From a virus, in IMG/VR virus record IMGVR_UViG_3300046006_002425, positions 1 to 20,859 of that record: a DNA stretch of 20,859 nucleotides. One strand, 5' to 3'. The position numbers were made by a program, and so were the translations under genes. How positions within the stretch are numbered: position 1 is the stretch's first letter; the number at the start of each line of letters is the position of its first letter. Of the stretch, positions 8,048 to 14,824 are shown piece after piece. The notes under the pieces were generated by a model. It ran no database searches and had not been told where the DNA came from. It was given only the letters and a program-made list of their open reading frames with translations.

Positions 8048-9832
8048 ATGACACCGCACCAACGTGCGGCCCTTTGGCTTTCCAAGGTGCCGCCAGCCGT
8101 CTCCGGTCAGTCCGGACACTCAACTACCTACACCGCTGCCGTCGGTCTCGTACACGGCTTCCAGCTATCCGAGGCGGACTCTCTAGCCCTGCTCTCAAGC
8201 TGGAATCAATCCTGCCAACCACCTTGGTCCGATCGCGAACTCATCCACAAGCTCCGCGAGGCCGCTTCCAAGTCTCACTCCAAACCAGCCGGCCATCTCC
8301 TTCAATCAGGGGTATCCCCCTCAACCGCTCCATTCGATATCACCAAGGTATCCTTCAAGCGACCGTCACCAGCGGTTGCGCCCGATCCTCAAGCCAGCGA
8401 GTTCAAGCGGTTCCTTCAAGCCGCCTTCGCTCCCACCGAGGTGGTCTGTATCTGTGATGCCGTCGAGGAGGGTAGGCCAGTCACCGCTGGATCATTCATC
8501 CCCATCGAGGAATGGATCGCTCGCTTCGATGATCCGGCATCCCGCATCCTATCACCGGAACGCGAGGGGATCTTTGTTCGCATCAATCCCTTCAAACCCA
8601 ACCTCTACAGCGGCAGCGACAACGATGTCAGCGCGTACCGCCATGTCCTGGTGGAGTTCGATGACAAGCCCAAGGCTGAACAGGAGAAGCTCTTCCGCGA
8701 TTCTGGCCTCCCGATCACCGTACTCATCGATAGCGGTGGTAAGAGTATCCATGCCTGGGTCCGCGTAGATGCGCCCAACCGCAAGGAGTGGGACATCCGC
8801 CGGGATATCATCTACTCGTCGATCCCGGGCATCGATGCCAAGAACAAGAACCCCTCGCGCTACTCCCGGCTCCCGGGCGCATGGCGTAGTCCTGTATCCC
8901 AGCAAAAGCTGCTGGCCACTAACCTCGGCTCCGCTTCATGGGAAGACTACCTCACCTCCCGGGAGACCGATGACGACAAGTCCACGGTGGTCTCGATCAA
9001 AGACCTCATCAACTTCGATCCAGACAACGATCCCGACAACCTGATCGGCAAACGCTGGCTCACCCGCGGCTCCTCCATGATCATCAGCGGTGGTACCGGG
9101 ATCGGGAAGTCCAGCCTCATGATGCAGATCGTCATCCGCTGGTGCCTCGGCCTCGAATTCTTCGGGATCAAGCCGGTGAAGCGATTGAAGATCGGAGTCA
9201 TCCAGGCCGAGAACGACAAGGGTGACCTCGCCGAAGCCTTCCGCGGGGTCATCAAAGGACTCAACATGAGCGTCAGCGAGATCGCTATCCTCCAAGAAAA
9301 CCTCCACTTCCGCACCGAAGCCGTCCGTACCGGTGACCAGTTCCTCGCCTACGCCCGCCGGTTCATCCACAAATCCAAGCTCGATGTCATCGTGGCCGAT
9401 CCACTATTCAGCTACTTCGGCGGTGACCTTTCGGACCAGGGCGAGGTCAGCGTGTTCCTTCGCAACAAACTCCAGCCCATCCTACACGAGACCAAGGTCG
9501 CTTGGATCTGGATGCATCACGTTGCCAAACCTCAGCGTAAGGAAAGCAATGAACCACTCACCACAATGGAACTGGCCCACTCAGGCTTCGGCTCCTCCGA
9601 ACTCGCCAACTGGGCGCGTGAGATAGCGGTTCTGCATGAGGTAGGCCAAAACAAACCTAGAAGGTTCCAGTTGGCCTTCTGCAAGCGCGGATCGCGGCTC
9701 CAGTCTAGCTCACTTCATCTTCAGCATTCTCCCAAGGGTATTCTGTGGGAGCAGTGGAACCCGATGCTAATGACCGGGGCGCAACTGAAGGAGCCGCAAC
9801 CACCTCCACATCGGCCAAGGCGGCGCGCATAG
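8048..9832 (+). CDS. Primase-helicase: PriCT-like, primase-polymerase-like and RepA-like ATPase domains
   Basis: 594 residues. Residues 5-75 are PriCT-like: ALWLSKVPPAVSGQSGH, then LLSSWNQSCQPPWSDRELIH. Residues about 130-285 look like an archaeo-eukaryotic primase (Prim-Pol) core, with an acidic motif VEFDD (202-206) and DSGGKSIHAWV (228-238), the usual 'sGxxxH' motif. Residues 335-550 are a RepA/DnaB-type ATPase with Walker A GGTGIGKS (348-355), Walker B DVIVADP (446-452) and WMHHV (488-492). It probably primes and unwinds phage DNA at the origin. The start at 8048 follows an A/C-rich leader without SD. The last 128 bases are overlapped by a convergent minus-strand gene, and the C-terminus is Pro/Arg-rich. 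Confidence 0.85.
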   Translation: MTPHQRAALWLSKVPPAVSGQSGHSTTYTAAVGLVHGFQLSEADSLALLSSWNQSCQPPWSDRELIHKLREAASKSHSKPAGHLLQSGVSPSTAPFDITKVSFKRPSPAVAPDPQASEFKRFLQAAFAPTEVVCICDAVEEGRPVTAGSFIPIEEWIARFDDPASRILSPEREGIFVRINPFKPNLYSGSDNDVSAYRHVLVEFDDKPKAEQEKLFRDSGLPITVLIDSGGKSIHAWVRVDAPNRKEWDIRRDIIYSSIPGIDAKNKNPSRYSRLPGAWRSPVSQQKLLATNLGSASWEDYLTSRETDDDKSTVVSIKDLINFDPDNDPDNLIGKRWLTRGSSMIISGGTGIGKSSLMMQIVIRWCLGLEFFGIKPVKRLKIGVIQAENDKGDLAEAFRGVIKGLNMSVSEIAILQENLHFRTEAVRTGDQFLAYARRFIHKSKLDVIVADPLFSYFGGDLSDQGEVSVFLRNKLQPILHETKVAWIWMHHVAKPQRKESNEPLTTMELAHSGFGSSELANWAREIAVLHEVGQNKPRRFQLAFCKRGSRLQSSSLHLQHSPKGILWEQWNPMLMTGAQLKEPQPPPHRPRRRA

Positions 9833-10355
9833 CTTTCCACCAGTCTTCTCCACCAGCCTCTTCCTCCTCGGCAGAGGCTTTTTTCGCTGCTTCCATCAAT
9901 GTTTCATCGACGACGGGTTCGTAGCTAGGAGCCTCCTCCTCCTTCTTCGATTCATCCTCCTCCTTACGCTTACCCGAACGCTTCCTTTCGAGTTGGCCAA
10001 TCGATCGTTCATGCTTCTTCACCGCGGTCTTCAGATACGCAACATCACGCTTGAGGTCATTGATGGTTCTCAAGAGCAACGAAACCTTGTCCTCATCCTG
10101 CGGAGGAACCCAGTCACACCCACGCCACTGCCGATGAACCATGTCATAAACAAGGACTTGAGACTTCTTGTTCCTCATGGAATTGAAGGCACGGATCGCT
10201 CGACCAAGCTCACAGGCGAGATTCGACATTATGTAGGCCAGAACCTCGGACTTAGCCGGGTCGATGTCATGGCGTTGCGGGGGCGTCAGTCGGAACATCG
10301 ACCGAAGCGTGGAACCATTGTCCAGATAACTCATAGCAAGAGCAAATTGCGTCAT
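9705..10355 (-). CDS. Minus-strand conserved hypothetical with coiled coil and acidic/basic tail
   Basis: 216 residues from the ATG at 10355 (MTQFALAMSYLDNGS). A TTG at 10406 would add 17 residues and an ATG at 10334 would remove seven; no start has a strong SD. NLACELGRAIRAFNSMRNKK, then SQVLVYDMVHRQWRG, resembles a phage protein pattern of the type 'GRAxRAF...SQxLVYD...WkG'. Next comes a heptad coiled coil (DLKRDVAYLKTAVKKHERSI) and a highly charged Lys/Glu linker (RKEEDESKKEEEA). The C-terminus is low-complexity. The function is unknown. It is the only gene on this strand left of the control region and overlaps the primase gene tail-to-tail by 128 bases. Confidence 0.65.
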   Translation of the reverse strand: MTQFALAMSYLDNGSTLRSMFRLTPPQRHDIDPAKSEVLAYIMSNLACELGRAIRAFNSMRNKKSQVLVYDMVHRQWRGCDWVPPQDEDKVSLLLRTINDLKRDVAYLKTAVKKHERSIGQLERKRSGKRKEEDESKKEEEAPSYEPVVDETLMEAAKKASAEEEEAGGEDWWKAMRAALADVEVVAAPSVAPRSLASGSTAPTEYPWENAEDEVS

Positions 10356-10430
10356 GGACGATCCAGCGTCAAGATAAAGGAATGTTGATTTTGCAGTGCA
10401 CCCCAAAGAGTTACCATAGCCACTACTACT

Positions 10431-10469
10431 CTCCCTAGAGGGAGATTCACACTCCCTCTACTAGGGAGT
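10431..10469. repeat. Twin palindromes CTCCCT-N-AGGGAG
   Basis: Copy A: CTCCCT (10431-10436), two-base spacer, AGGGAG (10439-10444). Copy B: ACTCCCT (10451-10457), five-base spacer, AGGGAGT (10463-10469). The centres are about 22 bases apart, close to two helical turns, so both can face one side of the DNA. They lie just upstream of the minus-strand gene ending at 10355/10406 and could be operators. Half-sites could also pair across copies in RNA. Confidence 0.65.
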
Positions 10470-10470
10470 T

Positions 10471-10536
10471 AAAAACTGCTTACGCCGCAAGCTTTTCGGG
10501 GGCTTTGAAGGCCCCCACGCTGCGGCTGCAGTTTTT
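10471..10536. terminator. Three-tier hairpin, possible bidirectional terminator
   Basis: The outer stem is AAAAACTGC (10471-10479) with GCAGTTTTT (10528-10536). The middle stem is GCCGCA (10484-10489) with TGCGGC (10521-10526). The inner stem is GGGGGC (10498-10503) with GCCCCC (10511-10516), loop TTTGAAG. The T run ends the stem on both strands, so it could stop transcription both ways, shielding the minus-strand gene from the right and stopping rightward read-through from the primase. A structured origin element is the other reading. Confidence 0.6.
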
Positions 10537-10676
10537 GAATGACCCTCTACTGATTACGAAGTATCGGGTATAAGGCGGTTGTGATGGATGGATATGGATG
10601 TCGATTGCTGGAGCTTGGAGGGGTCTAGGAGAGGGTTTGATGGCTGGATGGAGTGTAGGGAGCGGAACGGGGGTTG

Positions 10677-10699
10677 GACCGCTTAGAACAGGACCGCTT
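10677..10699 (+). repeat. 9-base direct repeat GGACCGCTT
   Basis: GGACCGCTT occurs at 10677-10685 and again at 10691-10699, offset 14 bases. Another short repeat in the same gap, CCCTCTACT, occurs at 10454-10462 and 10543-10551. Confidence 0.6.
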
Positions 10700-10725
10700 G
10701 GATTGGCCTACTCGACCGCACCATG

Positions 10726-10803
10726 ATTCCGGATTTCCCGATTCCCGATTCTGGAATTCCGAATTCCGAATTCCGTATGGCGTATGGAGAATCCCGAATA
10801 CCG
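10726..10803 (+). repeat. Array of seven-base units (iteron-like)
   Basis: The stretch divides almost without exception into heptamers: ATTCCGG, ATTTCCCG (one base longer), ATTCCCG, ATTCTGG, AATTCCG three times, TATGGCG, TATGGAG, AATCCCG, AATACCG. The A/T-x-T-C-C-G core and GAATTC palindromes dominate. The 11-base sequence CCGCACCATGA borders it on both sides (10716-10726 and 10801-10811). It resembles iterons of replication origins, but also the GAATTCCG-type repeat families seen in some bacterial intergenic DNA. Confidence 0.7.
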
Positions 10804-10862
10804 CACCATGAGGTTCGATGCCTGGGGGGGGCGCACATGGGCGGGATCCTGGACGGGTGTAA

Positions 10863-10917
10863 CGGGGTCGGACACGGGATGTCCAAGGCCAATAGCGGGG
10901 TCGGACATTGGATGTCC
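10863..10917. promoter_or_regulatory. Two 22-base operator-like palindromic sites
   Basis: Copies at 10863-10884 and 10896-10917 share CGGGGTCGGACA-NN-GGATGTCC. Each contains the inverted repeat GGACA-N5-TGTCC (10870-10884 and 10903-10917). They are offset 33 bases, about three helical turns, placing both on the same face. This is the classical look of tandem repressor or initiator binding sites. The binding protein is unknown; the small HTH proteins encoded at 6203 and 6633 are candidates by inference only. Confidence 0.65.
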
Positions 10918-10970
10918 TAGGGGGGTATCCTGGTCGCCTAGTGTTAAATCAGGAACCGAGACTATGGGCA

Positions 10971-11045
10971 AAGGAAGGAAGGAAAAACCGATGGCCTACT
11001 GTTAGACAAGCGGCAAGCGGCAAGCGGCCTAGGAAGGAAGGAAGG
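10971..11045 (+). repeat. Tandem CAAGCGG triplet between two GGAA repeats
   Basis: CAAGCGG occurs three times head to tail at 11007-11027. It is framed by AAGGAAGGAAGGAAA (10971-10985) and AGGAAGGAAGGAAGG (11031-11045). The seven-base period matches that of the array at 10726-10803. Confidence 0.65.
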
Positions 11046-11074
11046 CGGGTGTCGGGTGTCCACACCCTCGAGGC

Positions 11075-11108
11075 AAAGAAAAACCCCGCAGGGTTGAACC
11101 TACGGGGT
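11075..11108 (-). terminator. Intrinsic terminator of the minus-strand operon
   Basis: Read on the minus strand: ACCCCG (11108-11103), then CCT/AGG inner pairs, loop, CGGGGT (11088-11083), then TTTTTCTTT. A GC-rich stem followed by a T run is a standard rho-independent terminator. It lies 18 bases after the stop of the last minus-strand gene at 11127, which is strong support for both the terminator and the operon direction. Confidence 0.78.
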
Positions 11109-11126: not shown

Positions 11127-11222
11127 TTACTTACCGTTCCCGGCAAGGGCACTAATGACCAGCAGGAGGGTGAATAGCAGGCAAAGGGCAAGATACCCTA
11201 GGACACGAAGTAAGGGCTTCAC
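11127..11222 (-). CDS. 31-residue membrane protein (GTG start)
   Basis: The GTG at 11222 overlaps the stop of the previous minus-strand gene as GTGA, and GGAAGG lies eight bases upstream. The protein begins MKPLLRVLGYLALCLLFTLL and ends LVISALAGNGK: one membrane helix over about residues 4-26 with a positively charged start. It resembles the other tiny protein at the head of the operon, with the same Met-Lys-x-x start and Val-Ile-Ser-Ala-Leu-Ala segment. The function is unknown; phage micro-membrane proteins often act in lysis or exclusion. It is directly followed by the terminator. Confidence 0.6.
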   Translation of the reverse strand: MKPLLRVLGYLALCLLFTLLLVISALAGNGK

Positions 11223-11503
11223 TTAAGCTTCCTTCCGTCGATCACATCCACCCGATACTTCACACCGGGCTTCGTGACCAGTTCACGCACGCCATCCCAG
11301 CATGGCGCGCACATCGCACGCACGGTGGCGCATTTGCCAGTCTCGTTTTCCCAGACGGAAAATTCAACGGCGCGACGATAGTCCATCAGGTTTTCACAGC
11401 GTGGGCAAAAAATCGCCCGGCCCACGGAGGATTTCAGGCTTTCTCGGTCGGCATTGCGTTTGAACGTTTCAAGGATGTCTTTCATATGGTTTTGCTTAGG
11501 CAT
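11219..11503 (-). CDS. 94-residue zinc-finger-like hypothetical
   Basis: Cysteines are arranged as CPRC (Cys33, Cys36) and, after a strand-rich stretch, CAPC (Cys65, Cys68), with Cys58 between. This is a typical two-knuckle zinc site inside a small domain. The end VKYRVDVIDGRKLK is a beta hairpin. The ATG at 11503 (MPKQNHMKDILETF) is preferred; ATG 11485 is possible, and the frame extends upstream only by overlapping the previous gene. A strong SD lies further upstream but serves a 13-codon leader frame. The stop overlaps the start of the 31-residue membrane gene. The function is unknown. Confidence 0.68.
   Translation of the reverse strand: MPKQNHMKDILETFKRNADRESLKSSVGRAIFCPRCENLMDYRRAVEFSVWENETGKCATVRAMCAPCWDGVRELVTKPGVKYRVDVIDGRKLK
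11231..11236 (-). promoter_or_regulatory. SD site deciding a GTG start
   Basis: On the minus strand, GGAAGG lies eight bases before the GTG at 11222. This supports a start that would otherwise be hidden in the end of the previous gene. Confidence 0.6.
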
Positions 11504-11537
11504 AAATTGCCCGCAGAACCCACGGAGTTTCCCCCAT
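11496..11537 (-). CDS. 13-codon candidate leader peptide
   Basis: On the minus strand, GGAGG (11546-11542) lies four bases before an ATG at 11537. The frame reads MGETPWVLRAIYA and stops at 11498-11496, just past the ATG (11503) of the zinc-finger-like gene, which lies in another frame. Its ribosome site is better than that of the main gene. It may couple or attenuate translation; it may also be chance. Confidence 0.35.
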   Translation of the reverse strand: MGETPWVLRAIYA

Positions 11538-11553
11538 GGATCCTCCGGAAAAT

Positions 11554-12243
11554 TCAGGCTTCGAGAAAATGCGTTGCACCCTTTCCATGGGGTGGAATGT
11601 GGACAGACTCGAGACCGCCGCGAGCACCCGCACAGAGAAGACAGACGGCGCATGGCGTACCGTCGCGATCGGAAGCGCAAAGGTTTTCACCCACACTAGC
11701 TTCGGAGCCCACGCGAAAAGTAGACCACCCGAGTGACCGAGCGATCACGAGTTGCGCGACCGAGTCAACGGAGGCCATCAAAAGGGTTTTCCATCCTTGG
11801 AGCGATGGCTTGCGCCATTGGTGTGTGTAGCCTGTCCACCCCGAAGCCACACCCGCAATTGCAAGCGCAAGGGATAAGGGGATCCATGTCGGATCGCCGT
11901 AGGCTCCAAAGCGAACTTTGCGGCCCACGAAAGCTTCAAGGGAGCGCAAGGGAGGATAATTGCCCGCACGCCAAGCGCGCCAGATACCTTGCGGAGCCTG
12001 CCCGGGATTTACGTAGCATGTCCTTTCCACACCGAAGCGACCGTCAACCTCGTGTCCGCGATGGACACAAGATCCACAGATAAGCCGGTCAAGTCCCGTC
12101 CGGATCGCTTCCGTGGGACTCACAGAACGGACTAGGATCCAAATTTGGATCATGTCGCCGGTTTTCCGGTTGTCGGAGGGGTGATTGAAGCCGGTGGCGA
12201 TGATCACGCGGTCGTGATCCTCGTGGAGAATGAATCCGTTCAA
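11554..12243 (-). CDS. Conserved phage hypothetical, 229 residues (TTG start)
   Basis: The TTG at 12243 overlaps the previous stop as TTGA and has AAGGAGG six bases upstream. The pattern NRKTGDMIQIWILVRSVSPT (25-44), then EAIRTGLDRLICGSCVHRG and CYVNPGQAPQGIWRAWRAGN (76-95), matches a phage and prophage family I recall ('KTGdMvQtWIL...G...iCgdCphR...CYVn.gQ.p..vw..y..G.yp'), whose function is unknown to me. Later come FGAYGDPTWIPLSL and a GYTHQW segment. The Cys pair ICGSC and CYV may bind metal. No membrane segment except a moderately hydrophobic stretch around residues 120-133. Confidence 0.75.
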   Translation of the reverse strand: MNGFILHEDHDRVIIATGFNHPSDNRKTGDMIQIWILVRSVSPTEAIRTGLDRLICGSCVHRGHEVDGRFGVERTCYVNPGQAPQGIWRAWRAGNYPPLRSLEAFVGRKVRFGAYGDPTWIPLSLALAIAGVASGWTGYTHQWRKPSLQGWKTLLMASVDSVAQLVIARSLGWSTFRVGSEASVGENLCASDRDGTPCAVCLLCAGARGGLESVHIPPHGKGATHFLEA

Positions 12244-12503
12244 AGGGCCCCTCCTTCAATCCGAACGGAAAGAGCGCGGGTGTGATCTAGATGATCCCAT
12301 GATTCAAGGGAGACTTGAGAAGCGATTTTTCCACCCTTGCGCCGATACCCACCGATAGCATGGTAAGCTTCCCGAAGAGCTTCCGCCCGAGAGCGGAAAA
12401 AGCGACCGCGGGCGTCCAAACAAGCGGAAGCCGAAGAGCAAAAATAGTATCCACCGACATCTTCGAAGATTCGGGCGGTAACCGTTTGTGGGATTAGGTT
12501 CAA
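12240..12503 (-). CDS. 87-residue conserved hypothetical (TTG start)
   Basis: The TTG at 12503 overlaps the stop of the small membrane gene as TTGA, with GGAGGT five bases upstream; there is no in-frame ATG nearby. YYFCSSASACLDARGRFF, followed by RSRAEALREAYHAIGGYRRK, recalls short phage proteins with 'DxRGxxxxtxxxALxxA' and a Gly/Tyr turn. The N-terminal strand pattern and central helix suggest a small alpha/beta fold. The function is unknown. It is coupled to both neighbours in the minus-strand operon. Confidence 0.7.
   Translation of the reverse strand: MNLIPQTVTARIFEDVGGYYFCSSASACLDARGRFFRSRAEALREAYHAIGGYRRKGGKIASQVSLESWDHLDHTRALSVRIEGGAL
12250..12256 (-). promoter_or_regulatory. SD site deciding a TTG start
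   Basis: AAGGAGG on the minus strand lies six bases before the TTG at 12243, strong support for a non-ATG start of the 229-residue protein. Confidence 0.8.
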
Positions 12504-12610
12504 AGGACACCTCCGACTAGGAACTCTGCAACGCAGAGCGCGAGGGCTGAGATTACGAGGAACGCTCCGATGAGGATCGCGAGGGCGGTTAGGAAGGGTT
12601 TAAGTTTCAT
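12500..12610 (-). CDS. 36-residue membrane protein, first gene of minus-strand operon
   Basis: From the ATG at 12610 it reads MKLKPFLTALAILIGAFLVI then SALALCVAEFLVGGVL: a basic start and one or two hydrophobic stretches covering almost the whole length. Its stop overlaps the TTG of the next gene. There is no SD before the ATG. It looks related to the 31-residue protein at the other end of the operon (VISALA in both). It is probably an inner-membrane peptide; role unknown. Confidence 0.55.
   Translation of the reverse strand: MKLKPFLTALAILIGAFLVISALALCVAEFLVGGVL
12509..12514 (-). promoter_or_regulatory. SD site deciding a TTG start
   Basis: GGAGGT on the minus strand lies five bases before the TTG at 12503. 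It sits inside the end of the small membrane gene, so the two genes are coupled. Confidence 0.75.
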
Positions 12611-12646
12611 GATTTGAGAGGGAACCAATGATCGGTTCACGGGGGG

Positions 12647-12675
12647 AGAATGCAACGAGATGCGACGGGAGTCAA
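12647..12675 (-). promoter_or_regulatory. Candidate sigma70-type promoter of the minus-strand operon
   Basis: On the minus strand, TTGACT (12675-12670) is followed after exactly 17 bases by CATTCT (12652-12647). The -35 box matches five of six consensus bases and the -10 box three of six. It lies 37 bases before the first gene of the operon, within the divergent gap to the small terminase gene. I see no equally good plus-strand promoter there. Confidence 0.4.
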
Positions 12676-12717
12676 CGACAGAATACAGAAAGGGAAAGAA
12701 AGTTTATCGGGGAAGGG

Positions 12718-13164
12718 ATGAAAGCAAAGGGGGGTGATGTCCTGGTCAAAGGGGGAAAGGGGAAAGTGCCCATAAAACGTCCTTCCGATGCACCTAAAAA
12801 AAACGGGCCTGATCCCAAGACTATCGCAGATGCCGACTGGTCACGTGTCCTAGATGCCGCATCGCTCGGACTCCCGATGGAAAGGCTTTGGGCCCTTTCC
12901 GGAATGAGTGACAAGACTTTCAACCGATACTTGCTGAGATATCCGGAAAGGAAGGAAGCCATCGAAGCGGCCAGGACTCGTGGTGAATATGACCTTACCT
13001 CAGTCGTTCGATCATGCGGTAATGGCTGGCAAGGATCCGCATGGTTGCTCGAGCGTACTCGCGGTTACGTAGCCCGCGCCTCGTTAGAGCATACTGGTAA
13101 AGGTGGTAAGGAACTATCAGTTAGCGGCAATTTACTAGGAGCTTTTGGCGGGCAATCTAAATAG
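12718..13164 (+). CDS. terS: Terminase small subunit
   Basis: 148 residues. After a Lys/Gly-rich N-terminus come two helical blocks: DWSRVLDAASLGLPMERLWA (41-60) and GMSDKTFNRYLLRYPERKEA (63-82), the latter a helix-turn-helix. WLLERTRGYVARASLEHTGK near the end is typical of small terminases, which bind packaging sites and regulate the large subunit. The gene lies directly before the large terminase. The start at 12718 has GGGGAAGGG immediately upstream; an ATG at 12628 preceded by GAGAGGG would add 30 residues and cannot be excluded. It is divergent from the minus-strand operon. Confidence 0.75.
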   Translation: MKAKGGDVLVKGGKGKVPIKRPSDAPKKNGPDPKTIADADWSRVLDAASLGLPMERLWALSGMSDKTFNRYLLRYPERKEAIEAARTRGEYDLTSVVRSCGNGWQGSAWLLERTRGYVARASLEHTGKGGKELSVSGNLLGAFGGQSK

Positions 13165-13288: not shown

Positions 13289-14824
13289 ATGAGTGTCAAG
13301 CAAATTAAACGGAAGAAATCCCCTTCACTAGGAATGGGTTCGCATATCCCTGCATGGAAGCAGCGTAAGCTCCTGGAGGAGGCACAACATTTGGCCAACT
13401 TCCCTAAGATGATGTTGGGGCTTCGCGACACCTATCCTTGGCAGGAGAAGGTGCTGGGAGCGTTGAACGAGAAGCATTCCAAGGTAGCACTCAAGGCCGC
13501 GAATGGTTCTGGCAAGACAAGCATGGTAGCCGCGAGCGCGGTTGTCTGGCACATGCTCCGCTGGCCTGGGAGCTTGGTGGTATGTACGGCTGGTGTGTAC
13601 CGACAGGTGGCCGATGCTCTGTGGCCGCATCTTCGGAAGATGATCAATGGATTGGGTGGCGAGGAGAATGGATTCTCGATCAAGGATGGAGAGATCCGGT
13701 ATGTGTACCCGAAGAAGGTGGATGGTCAGGAGCTGGTGAGTAGATGCATAGGGTTCAGCGCGAGCAATCCTGAGAAGGCGGAGGGCTGGCATGTGCAGGG
13801 TCCGAGCAATGATTTGCTGTATATTGTGGATGAGGCGAAGGCGGTACCGGACGGTATATTCCAGTCGATGGAACGGTGCCAGCCAACGCGGACTCTGTTG
13901 ATGAGTAGCCCCGGGGGCTCCTCCGGCTATTTCTACGATGTGTTCCGGCGGAACGATGGGAAGTGGAATACCTTTACGGTGACGGCTTTCGATTGTCCGC
14001 ATATCCGGAAGGAGTGGATTGATGATCAGTTCGCCAGATGGGGCGAGGGTCATCCGCTTGTGAGATCGATGATCTACGCGGAGTTCATGGAGGACGATGG
14101 GAGTTTGACGGCGGTAAAGACGATCGATTGGCAGAGGGTGGTTAGTGGCCCACCTAAGGAGGATACGGAGGGTCAGCCATTGACCGCGGGTTGTGACTTC
14201 TCGGCTGGTGGTGATGAGAGTGTCCTCGTCATACGCCAAGGTAATACGGTTAAGGGGCTGGTCCGGTGGCGGGATAAGGACACGATGGCCAGTGTGGGTA
14301 GGTTCATAGCGGAGTTCAGGAAGTGGAATCTGAAGGCGGCGGATATCTATGCGGATGTGGGCGGTATGGGGGTTGTGATGTGTGATGCCCTCCGCTCCGA
14401 GGGTTGGGATGTGCGGCGGGTTAACTTTGGTGAGCGGGCCATTCGGGATGATCAGTTCGTGAATAGGGCGGCGGAGATGTGGATCGAGTTTGGGCGGATG
14501 GTGGAGGAAGCGAAGGTGAATCTGGGGCCTGTGGGAACGGACGAGATTCTATTGCAGCAGTTCGTGAGTAGGAAGGTACGGACTAATGGTAAGGGGAAGC
14601 TGACGCTGGAGGGTAAGGACGAGTTACGATCCCGCGGGGTGAATAGTCCGGATCGGGCGGATGCTATGGTGCTGGCGTTTTGCGGTGGTGGCGGGAAGCG
14701 GATGGATGAGTACCTGAAAGCGTTGGGTGAGGATGGAAGGAGCTTGCTTGAAAGGATGGAGGATGAGATAGGTCCGGTGGAGGAAACTGGGTCTTCGCTT
14801 GCTGGATGCGAGGTTGGCGGGTAG
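13289..14824 (+). CDS. terL: Terminase large subunit
   Basis: 511 residues with the two-domain layout of a packaging motor. ATPase: Walker A AANGSGKT (70-77), Walker B LLYIVDEA (176-183) with Asp181-Glu182, and coupling motif MSSPGG (205-210). RNase H-like nuclease: Asp303 in GCDFSAGGDES, Asp356 in DIYADVGGMG, and Asp455/Asp458 in NSPDRADAM. It uses ATP to pump phage DNA into the prohead and cuts it at start and finish. The start at 13289 lacks an SD and is preceded by competing hairpins. The coding strand is strikingly G-rich compared with genes left of 10 kb. Confidence 0.93.
   Translation: MSVKQIKRKKSPSLGMGSHIPAWKQRKLLEEAQHLANFPKMMLGLRDTYPWQEKVLGALNEKHSKVALKAANGSGKTSMVAASAVVWHMLRWPGSLVVCTAGVYRQVADALWPHLRKMINGLGGEENGFSIKDGEIRYVYPKKVDGQELVSRCIGFSASNPEKAEGWHVQGPSNDLLYIVDEAKAVPDGIFQSMERCQPTRTLLMSSPGGSSGYFYDVFRRNDGKWNTFTVTAFDCPHIRKEWIDDQFARWGEGHPLVRSMIYAEFMEDDGSLTAVKTIDWQRVVSGPPKEDTEGQPLTAGCDFSAGGDESVLVIRQGNTVKGLVRWRDKDTMASVGRFIAEFRKWNLKAADIYADVGGMGVVMCDALRSEGWDVRRVNFGERAIRDDQFVNRAAEMWIEFGRMVEEAKVNLGPVGTDEILLQQFVSRKVRTNGKGKLTLEGKDELRSRGVNSPDRADAMVLAFCGGGGKRMDEYLKALGEDGRSLLERMEDEIGPVEETGSSLAGCEVGG

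Follow-up and report, generated by a model that had tools for sequence, protein, structure and literature searches.

Stop-codon-anchored RNA elements in a minus-strand operon with exchangeable cassettes in a lake phage family

How genes without a Shine-Dalgarno sequence (SD) initiate translation in bacteria and phages is an open question. In phage T7, RNase III sites lie between early genes. Translational coupling through RNA unfolding is described for VII-IX of phage f1, the coat and lysis genes of MS2 and rpmI-rplT of E. coli (review PMC12548453), and a screen, as that review summarizes it, indicates that structure directly after a stop codon lowers coupling, which counts against a gating role for the elements presented below. 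In the operon described here, the arrangement characteristic of RNA-unfolding coupling, a helix between an upstream stop codon and a downstream start codon, is present in two types of element, each with its helix P1 at the stop codon.

The window, the whole 20,859-nucleotide stretch that was analysed, is a virus contig of 20.9 kb that encodes a terminase, an SU10-type portal and a major head protein, and a DNA search with it gave no near match among 50,697 GenBank phages. Homologues of its gene C at 76-100% identity were found by protein search in at least 80 IMG/VR loci (phrog_2554 loci number ~555), and the operon is common to at least ~100 related IMG/VR contigs of a lake phage family. The order of the locus in relatives is primase (plus), a 233-aa gene (usually minus), E...C...A (minus), TerS (plus) and TerL (plus). 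The features of the operon in the window are as follows.

12647..12675, minus strand: candidate promoter, TTGACT (12675-12670), 17 nt, CATTCT (12652-12647); read from the sequence, TTGAC box conserved in relatives' leaders, below the consensus scan
12622..12638, minus strand: leader hairpin GAACCG-AUCAU-UGGUUC, 11 nt 5' of the SD-less ATG of A; covariation, spacing
12500..12610, minus strand: gene A, 36-aa membrane micro-protein, ATG start, replaced in relatives by other TM peptides; open reading frame, homologues
12240..12503, minus strand: gene B, 87 aa, TTG start in a TTGA overlap, SD, variable slot; open reading frame, homologues
11554..12243, minus strand: gene C, 229 aa, TTG start, phrog_2554, constant, seven invariant cysteines, TIM-barrel-like model; profile, alignment, model
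11492..11556, minus strand: structured RNA element anchored at the C stop codon; covariance-model match (57.8 bits, E 3.6e-11), covariation, z -4.9
11546..11556, minus strand: P1 5' strand, beginning with the UGA stop of C, partner 11503-11513; folding, pairing partly invariant
11515..11544, minus strand: P2 hairpin, GAAA (GNRA) loop 11528-11531; compensatory changes, loop tally
11503..11513, minus strand: P1 3' strand, overlapping the P3 5' arm and loop; folding
11498..11512, minus strand: P3 hairpin GGGCA-AUUUA-UGCCU, 12 nt 5' of the SD-less ATG of D; hairpin and spacing survey
11219..11485, minus strand: gene D, 88 aa, two CxxC (zinc-ribbon-like), ATG start, variable slot; open reading frame, homologues
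11127..11222, minus strand: gene E, 31-aa membrane micro-protein, constant last gene, GTG start in a GTGA overlap; open reading frame, pN/pS
11075..11108, minus strand: intrinsic terminator, stem 11083-11108 plus U tract; terminator scan, compensatory changes in relatives

The preliminary description of this stretch had proposed a self-contained minus-strand operon of five genes, and most of that layout was recovered. Open reading frames A to E are genes rather than chance frames because their homologues stand in order in ~80 IMG/VR loci and because pN/pS is low in E (0.13) and D (0.14); E is under strong purifying selection. The overlaps TTGA (12503-12500 and 12243-12240) and GTGA (11222-11219) are present, the SD-like strings GGAGGT, GGAGGGG and GGAAGGA precede B, C and E, respectively, and A and D have no SD. 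The four plus-strand junctions inspected (3384/3387, 3536/3539, 7007/7010 and 7264/7267) are ATG overlaps of 4 nt, again as described, and the stem of the terminator varies with compensation across loci. What did not hold is the statement that the operon runs opposite to all its neighbours, since the next downstream gene (9705-10406, 233 aa) is also on the minus strand and is conserved. It shares ~128 nt with the 3' end of the primase gene, and about ten relatives give only a 32% match to it, in the opposite orientation. The stretch at 10400-11075 has no clear genes and contains imperfect repeats around GTCCGACCCCG and GGAATTC. The proposed promoter fared unevenly: it is too weak for a consensus scan, but its TTGAC box recurs at the same place in the leaders of many relatives. 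Transcription from this candidate promoter would be expected to begin near 12640, where the leader hairpin lies. Gene D most likely starts at the ATG at 11485, where its homologues begin MKDILE; a start at 11503 was rejected, as the homologues begin at the codon matching 11485.

Comparison among relatives bears out the earlier term accessory module, in that primase, TerL, C, E and the terminator are retained, whereas the genes upstream of C and those that separate C from E vary. Within the operon the constant parts are gene C, the membrane peptide E and the terminator, and the other genes exchange as cassettes: the slot of gene A is filled by several membrane peptides of 33-37 aa, the slot upstream of C either has no gene or encodes one of several kinds of 84-97-aa protein, and zero to three small genes stand between C and E (D, f4a, f4b, f4c, f8, f14, f19, f22 and f23, where all names but D are family names coined in this analysis). 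Two of these C-E families match phrog_9974 and phrog_3199, both PHROGs of unknown function. The operon is thus well supported as an ordinary kind of accessory module, with C and E constant and the cassettes exchangeable. The further suggestion of a role in host interaction or superinfection exclusion found no support, as no known exclusion or defence family was matched. PADLOC returned nothing for A-E, and A, B, C and E gave no match in Pfam (above cut-off), NCBIfam or the PHROGs of known function. Small membrane peptides by themselves do not signal exclusion.

Why, then, are the starts mostly TTG and GTG? Such starts are present in the window, but they are not a fixed property of the genes, since the start codons of C and E vary among ATG, GTG and TTG in relatives; to this extent the earlier reading of the start codons was incomplete. 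The start codon of E mostly tracks the preceding cassette, being GTG or TTG after D (24/24 distinct contexts), ATG after f8 (7/7), ATG or GTG after f4b, and GTG where E directly overlaps C. The predominance of TTG and GTG is a by-product of cassette exchange because the end of the upstream cassette supplies the first base within the NTGA overlap, and these starts are ordinary NTGA overlaps with exchanged cassettes.

Gene C, described earlier as a conserved phage protein of unknown function, is a full-length member of phrog_2554 (profile match E 7.1e-61, residues 10-226) with homologues in 147 GenBank phages, and proteins of this family occur in Mycobacterium, Gordonia, Klebsiella, Microcystis and roseobacter phages. 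Its seven cysteines are invariant in an alignment of relatives at 39-90% identity to C and fall into the patterns CxxC...C and C...CxxCxxC. The similarities of the AlphaFold model (pTM 0.80) to TIM barrels, to radical SAM proteins of phages and to Gp88 are all non-significant (fold search, E > 0.1); a radical SAM or Gp88-like identity found no support, there being no Pfam match, no CxxxCxxC motif and no fold match outside that range. As a guess, C may be a metal- or cluster-binding enzyme. Gene D gave sub-threshold zinc-ribbon and Lar-like hints only (Lar-like PHROG match E 0.013), and a protein search found no homologue of it in GenBank phages.

Among the side observations on the phage family, phages that share 92-100% identity in TerL (13289-14824) often have TerS genes (12628-13164) of only 42-60% identity, a contrast between adjoining packaging genes that is out of the ordinary. 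The primase gene (8048) and TerL (13289) have ATG starts without an SD, kept in relatives. One Verrucomicrobiota MAG contig carries the module with a TerL 93% identical, and the module or a C homologue is seen on the Verrucomicrobiota MAG contigs of loci L102 and L108. Distant TerL relatives (26-43% identity) were found in 13 of 289 Verrucomicrobiota genomes. A Verrucomicrobiota host remains a lead because the RNA element after gene C was found in none of 288 other genomes of the phylum.

This structured RNA between C and D was missed in the preliminary description. In most relatives, 56-61 nt of conserved non-coding sequence with no kept reading frame come after the C stop codon; a 13-codon open reading frame with a good SD at this place in the window (MGETPWVLRAIYA, ~11541-11500) was discarded, its start, SD and frame all being unconserved in relatives. 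We collected 66 distinct versions, all of which fit one fold. Its basal helix, P1, has 8-9 pairs and one mismatch; next comes a 2x2 internal loop, in which the first mismatch is purine-purine in 65/65; and P2 has 10-12 pairs and, in most versions, a GNRA loop. Two ungapped sub-alignments, of 27 and 11 sequences, were counted separately, and therefore the alignment was not fitted to the structure. All 459 cells are paired in the larger group, 43 of them changed on both sides, and all 198 in the smaller, with 27 changed on both sides. The two-sided changes include G-C to C-G, C-G to U-A and U-A to A-U. None of 500 shuffles attained the values of the two sub-alignments, in a shuffling that ignores the relatedness of the sequences, and moving the partners by 1-3 columns left 29-53% paired. 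MAFFT alignments of all versions together and of the 17-nt hairpins misregistered some helices and were left out of the counts.

Across the 66 versions G-U pairs number 141 against 6 A-C, and this excess together with the mostly GNRA loops indicates a sense RNA. The covariance-model score listed above comes from a model of one group from which the window was left out; most full-length cases score 50-89 bits in sense and at most 25 in antisense. The fold of the window element has an energy of -33 kcal/mol (z -4.9). Rfam (release 15) gave no match in the window, and a permissive search with two versions gave chance-level matches only. The element is single-copy per genome in six long relatives, and an interpretation as repeated DNA was rejected on this ground and as pattern matches outside the operon lack the fold. 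In distant phrog_2554 loci the element was absent from those tested with the covariance model, and an E-terminated operon was seen in none of these loci.

The position of the element is tied to the C stop codon. In 62/66 versions the triplet ahead of P1 is a stop, and in three more the stop is offset by one base; P1 starts at this codon, and in the window the UGA takes part in the pairing. A hairpin, P3, lies 8-13 nt before the SD-less AUG of the next gene, and P1 and P3 are mutually exclusive because the bases that make up the 3' strand of P1 also supply the 5' arm and loop of P3. Over 65 versions the energy difference between the two states averages 0.7 kcal/mol (range -9 to +3.5), and the favoured fold varies. 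A ninth extra pair of P1 is C-G, G-C or U-A, and version L064 changes U-A to C-G; since most P1 pairs are invariant, P1 rests on few changes and its support is thinner than that of P2.

Hairpins of the same kind stand elsewhere in the operon. Like A, the peptides that replace it have no SD. Where A is the first gene, it is preceded by a leader hairpin of 6 bp with a five-base loop, mostly 10-12 nt from the ATG; its 10 distinct 6-bp/5-nt versions are paired in 60/60 cells (shuffled mean 75%, 0/2000 shuffles), and one stem position shows all four Watson-Crick pairs. Where f9 precedes A, a second element is found, with a P1 (UGACCGGAUC/GGUCUGGUCA) that contains the stop codon, a P2 that is often GNRA-looped and a P3 hairpin 8-12 nt before the ATG. 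Its layout is that of the C element and its sequence is different. Across the three sites the hairpin loop follows the consensus A, U/C, any, A/G, any (AYNRN), the sole exception being at position four. These RNA elements do not appear in the catalogues searched; their structures are well supported while a role as switches is unproven.

The genes of the operon divide by mode of start. Those that overlap the preceding gene (NTGA) use ATG, GTG or TTG, mostly with an SD, whereas those that follow a gap use ATG only, have a hairpin ahead and rarely have an SD. Hairpin and ATG occur together in 59 of 60 genes after the RNA element that follows C and in 47 of 50 non-overlapping first genes in slot A; 12 apparent SDs were seen in the latter, and those inspected are GGAG strings inside the hairpin arm. 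Where the element is absent after C, the next gene has an SD and an overlap in 10/10 relatives, so that after the same gene C relatives offer a natural comparison between SD plus overlap and RNA element plus ATG. SD-less plus-strand controls gave a hairpin in 0/16 primase and 0/44 TerL genes, and random ATGs in 13%. A phage-wide rule that couples SD-less starts to hairpins was rejected on these controls, and therefore P3 is no general substitute for an SD and the hairpin belongs to this operon. The 6-bp version followed by ATG occurs only in this operon within a 36-kb relative.

What could such an arrangement do? The reading that we consider best, and to which the sequence patterns lend about even confidence, is that the elements are ribosome-gated translational switches at stop codons. 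One promoter would drive the module, which would be translated in two modes: NTGA-overlapping genes would initiate through an SD with any start codon, and non-overlapping genes would initiate at an ATG without an SD, behind a 6-bp AYNRN hairpin that ends ~11 nt upstream. At the promoter this hairpin would stand alone, with no competing helix, and at internal sites a competing P1, bearing the mostly GNRA-capped P2 and starting from the upstream stop codon, would sequester its 5' arm. A ribosome finishing the upstream gene would open P1, P3 could then form and the downstream ATG would become usable, such that translation of the cassette would depend on upstream translation. The reader of P3 might be the 30S subunit or a phage RNA-binding protein. 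That the ribosome does the opening, that P3 activates and does not repress, and that any factor binds are all inferred. A switch opened by a terminating ribosome fits best because it accommodates stop anchoring, exclusive P1 and P3 and an SD-less start, and we count stop anchoring, ungapped covariation, the split in start mode and the independent f9 element in favour of gating. Counting against it are the few changes in P1, the varying favoured fold and the other SD-less phage genes that have no hairpin, as well as a P3 change in the f9 element that costs P1 a pair. With rather more doubt, these may represent a new class of two-state, stop-anchored elements that pass translation to SD-less genes via an initiator hairpin and are reused with unrelated sequences at several junctions.

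An alternative hypothesis is that RNase III-type processing takes place in the P1-P2 stem and that P3 then folds at the new 5' end of the freed mRNA and protects it, in imitation of the 5' end made at the promoter. A stem of ~20 bp with a conserved 2x2 internal loop and a purine-purine first mismatch in 65/65 would suit such an enzyme, P3 formation requires the loss of P1, and the leader at the promoter bears only a P3-like hairpin, near the predicted 5' end. However, cleavage needs no exact anchoring at a stop codon, and a stability cap would not predict the near-constant distance to the ATG; we regard this hypothesis as unlikely. The loops, kept as A-Y-N-R-N at three sites while the stem sequence is free, may instead point to P3-type hairpins as operators for a repressor or activator, possibly C or D, in translational autoregulation where P1 and P2 only tune access. 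Confinement of the 6-bp version plus ATG to the operon in the 36-kb relative, and its absence at two other SD-less genes, would agree with this, but C and D match no RNA-binding family and distant phages have C without the element, which leaves autoregulation improbable in our estimation.

The stems might also act at the level of DNA, for instance as recombination boundaries for cassette exchange, given that the element sits where constant C meets variable genes. The excess of G-U over A-C mismatches, the mostly GNRA loops and the far lower antisense model scores argue against this, and the stem sequence is unconserved, though homologous exchange would require its conservation; we consider a DNA-level role very improbable. 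The data do not separate the ribosome-gated switch from the RNase III or protein-operator hypotheses. If the switch reading is true, the elements would be a compact, sequence-flexible coupling device across gaps of ~60-75 nt and would explain how cassettes are exchanged with translation kept coordinated.

Each of the described systems shares part of this design. The P3-type hairpin resembles the coat-protein operators of MS2-type RNA phages in being small, having an A-first loop and lying near a start codon, but here it stands ~11 nt upstream of the AUG, which is outside the hairpin, its loop has five bases, and no coat-like protein is known. Like the intercistronic RNase III sites of T7, the C element is a long interrupted stem between phage genes; unlike them, it is anchored at a stop codon and overlaps an alternative hairpin. 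RNA-unfolding coupling likewise involves an intercistronic helix that sits beside a downstream start codon and is linked to translation of the upstream gene. The elements described here differ in that an alternative hairpin rather than an exposed SD precedes the start, and in that the helix contains or abuts the stop codon, covaries in 66 versions and recurs with unrelated sequence.
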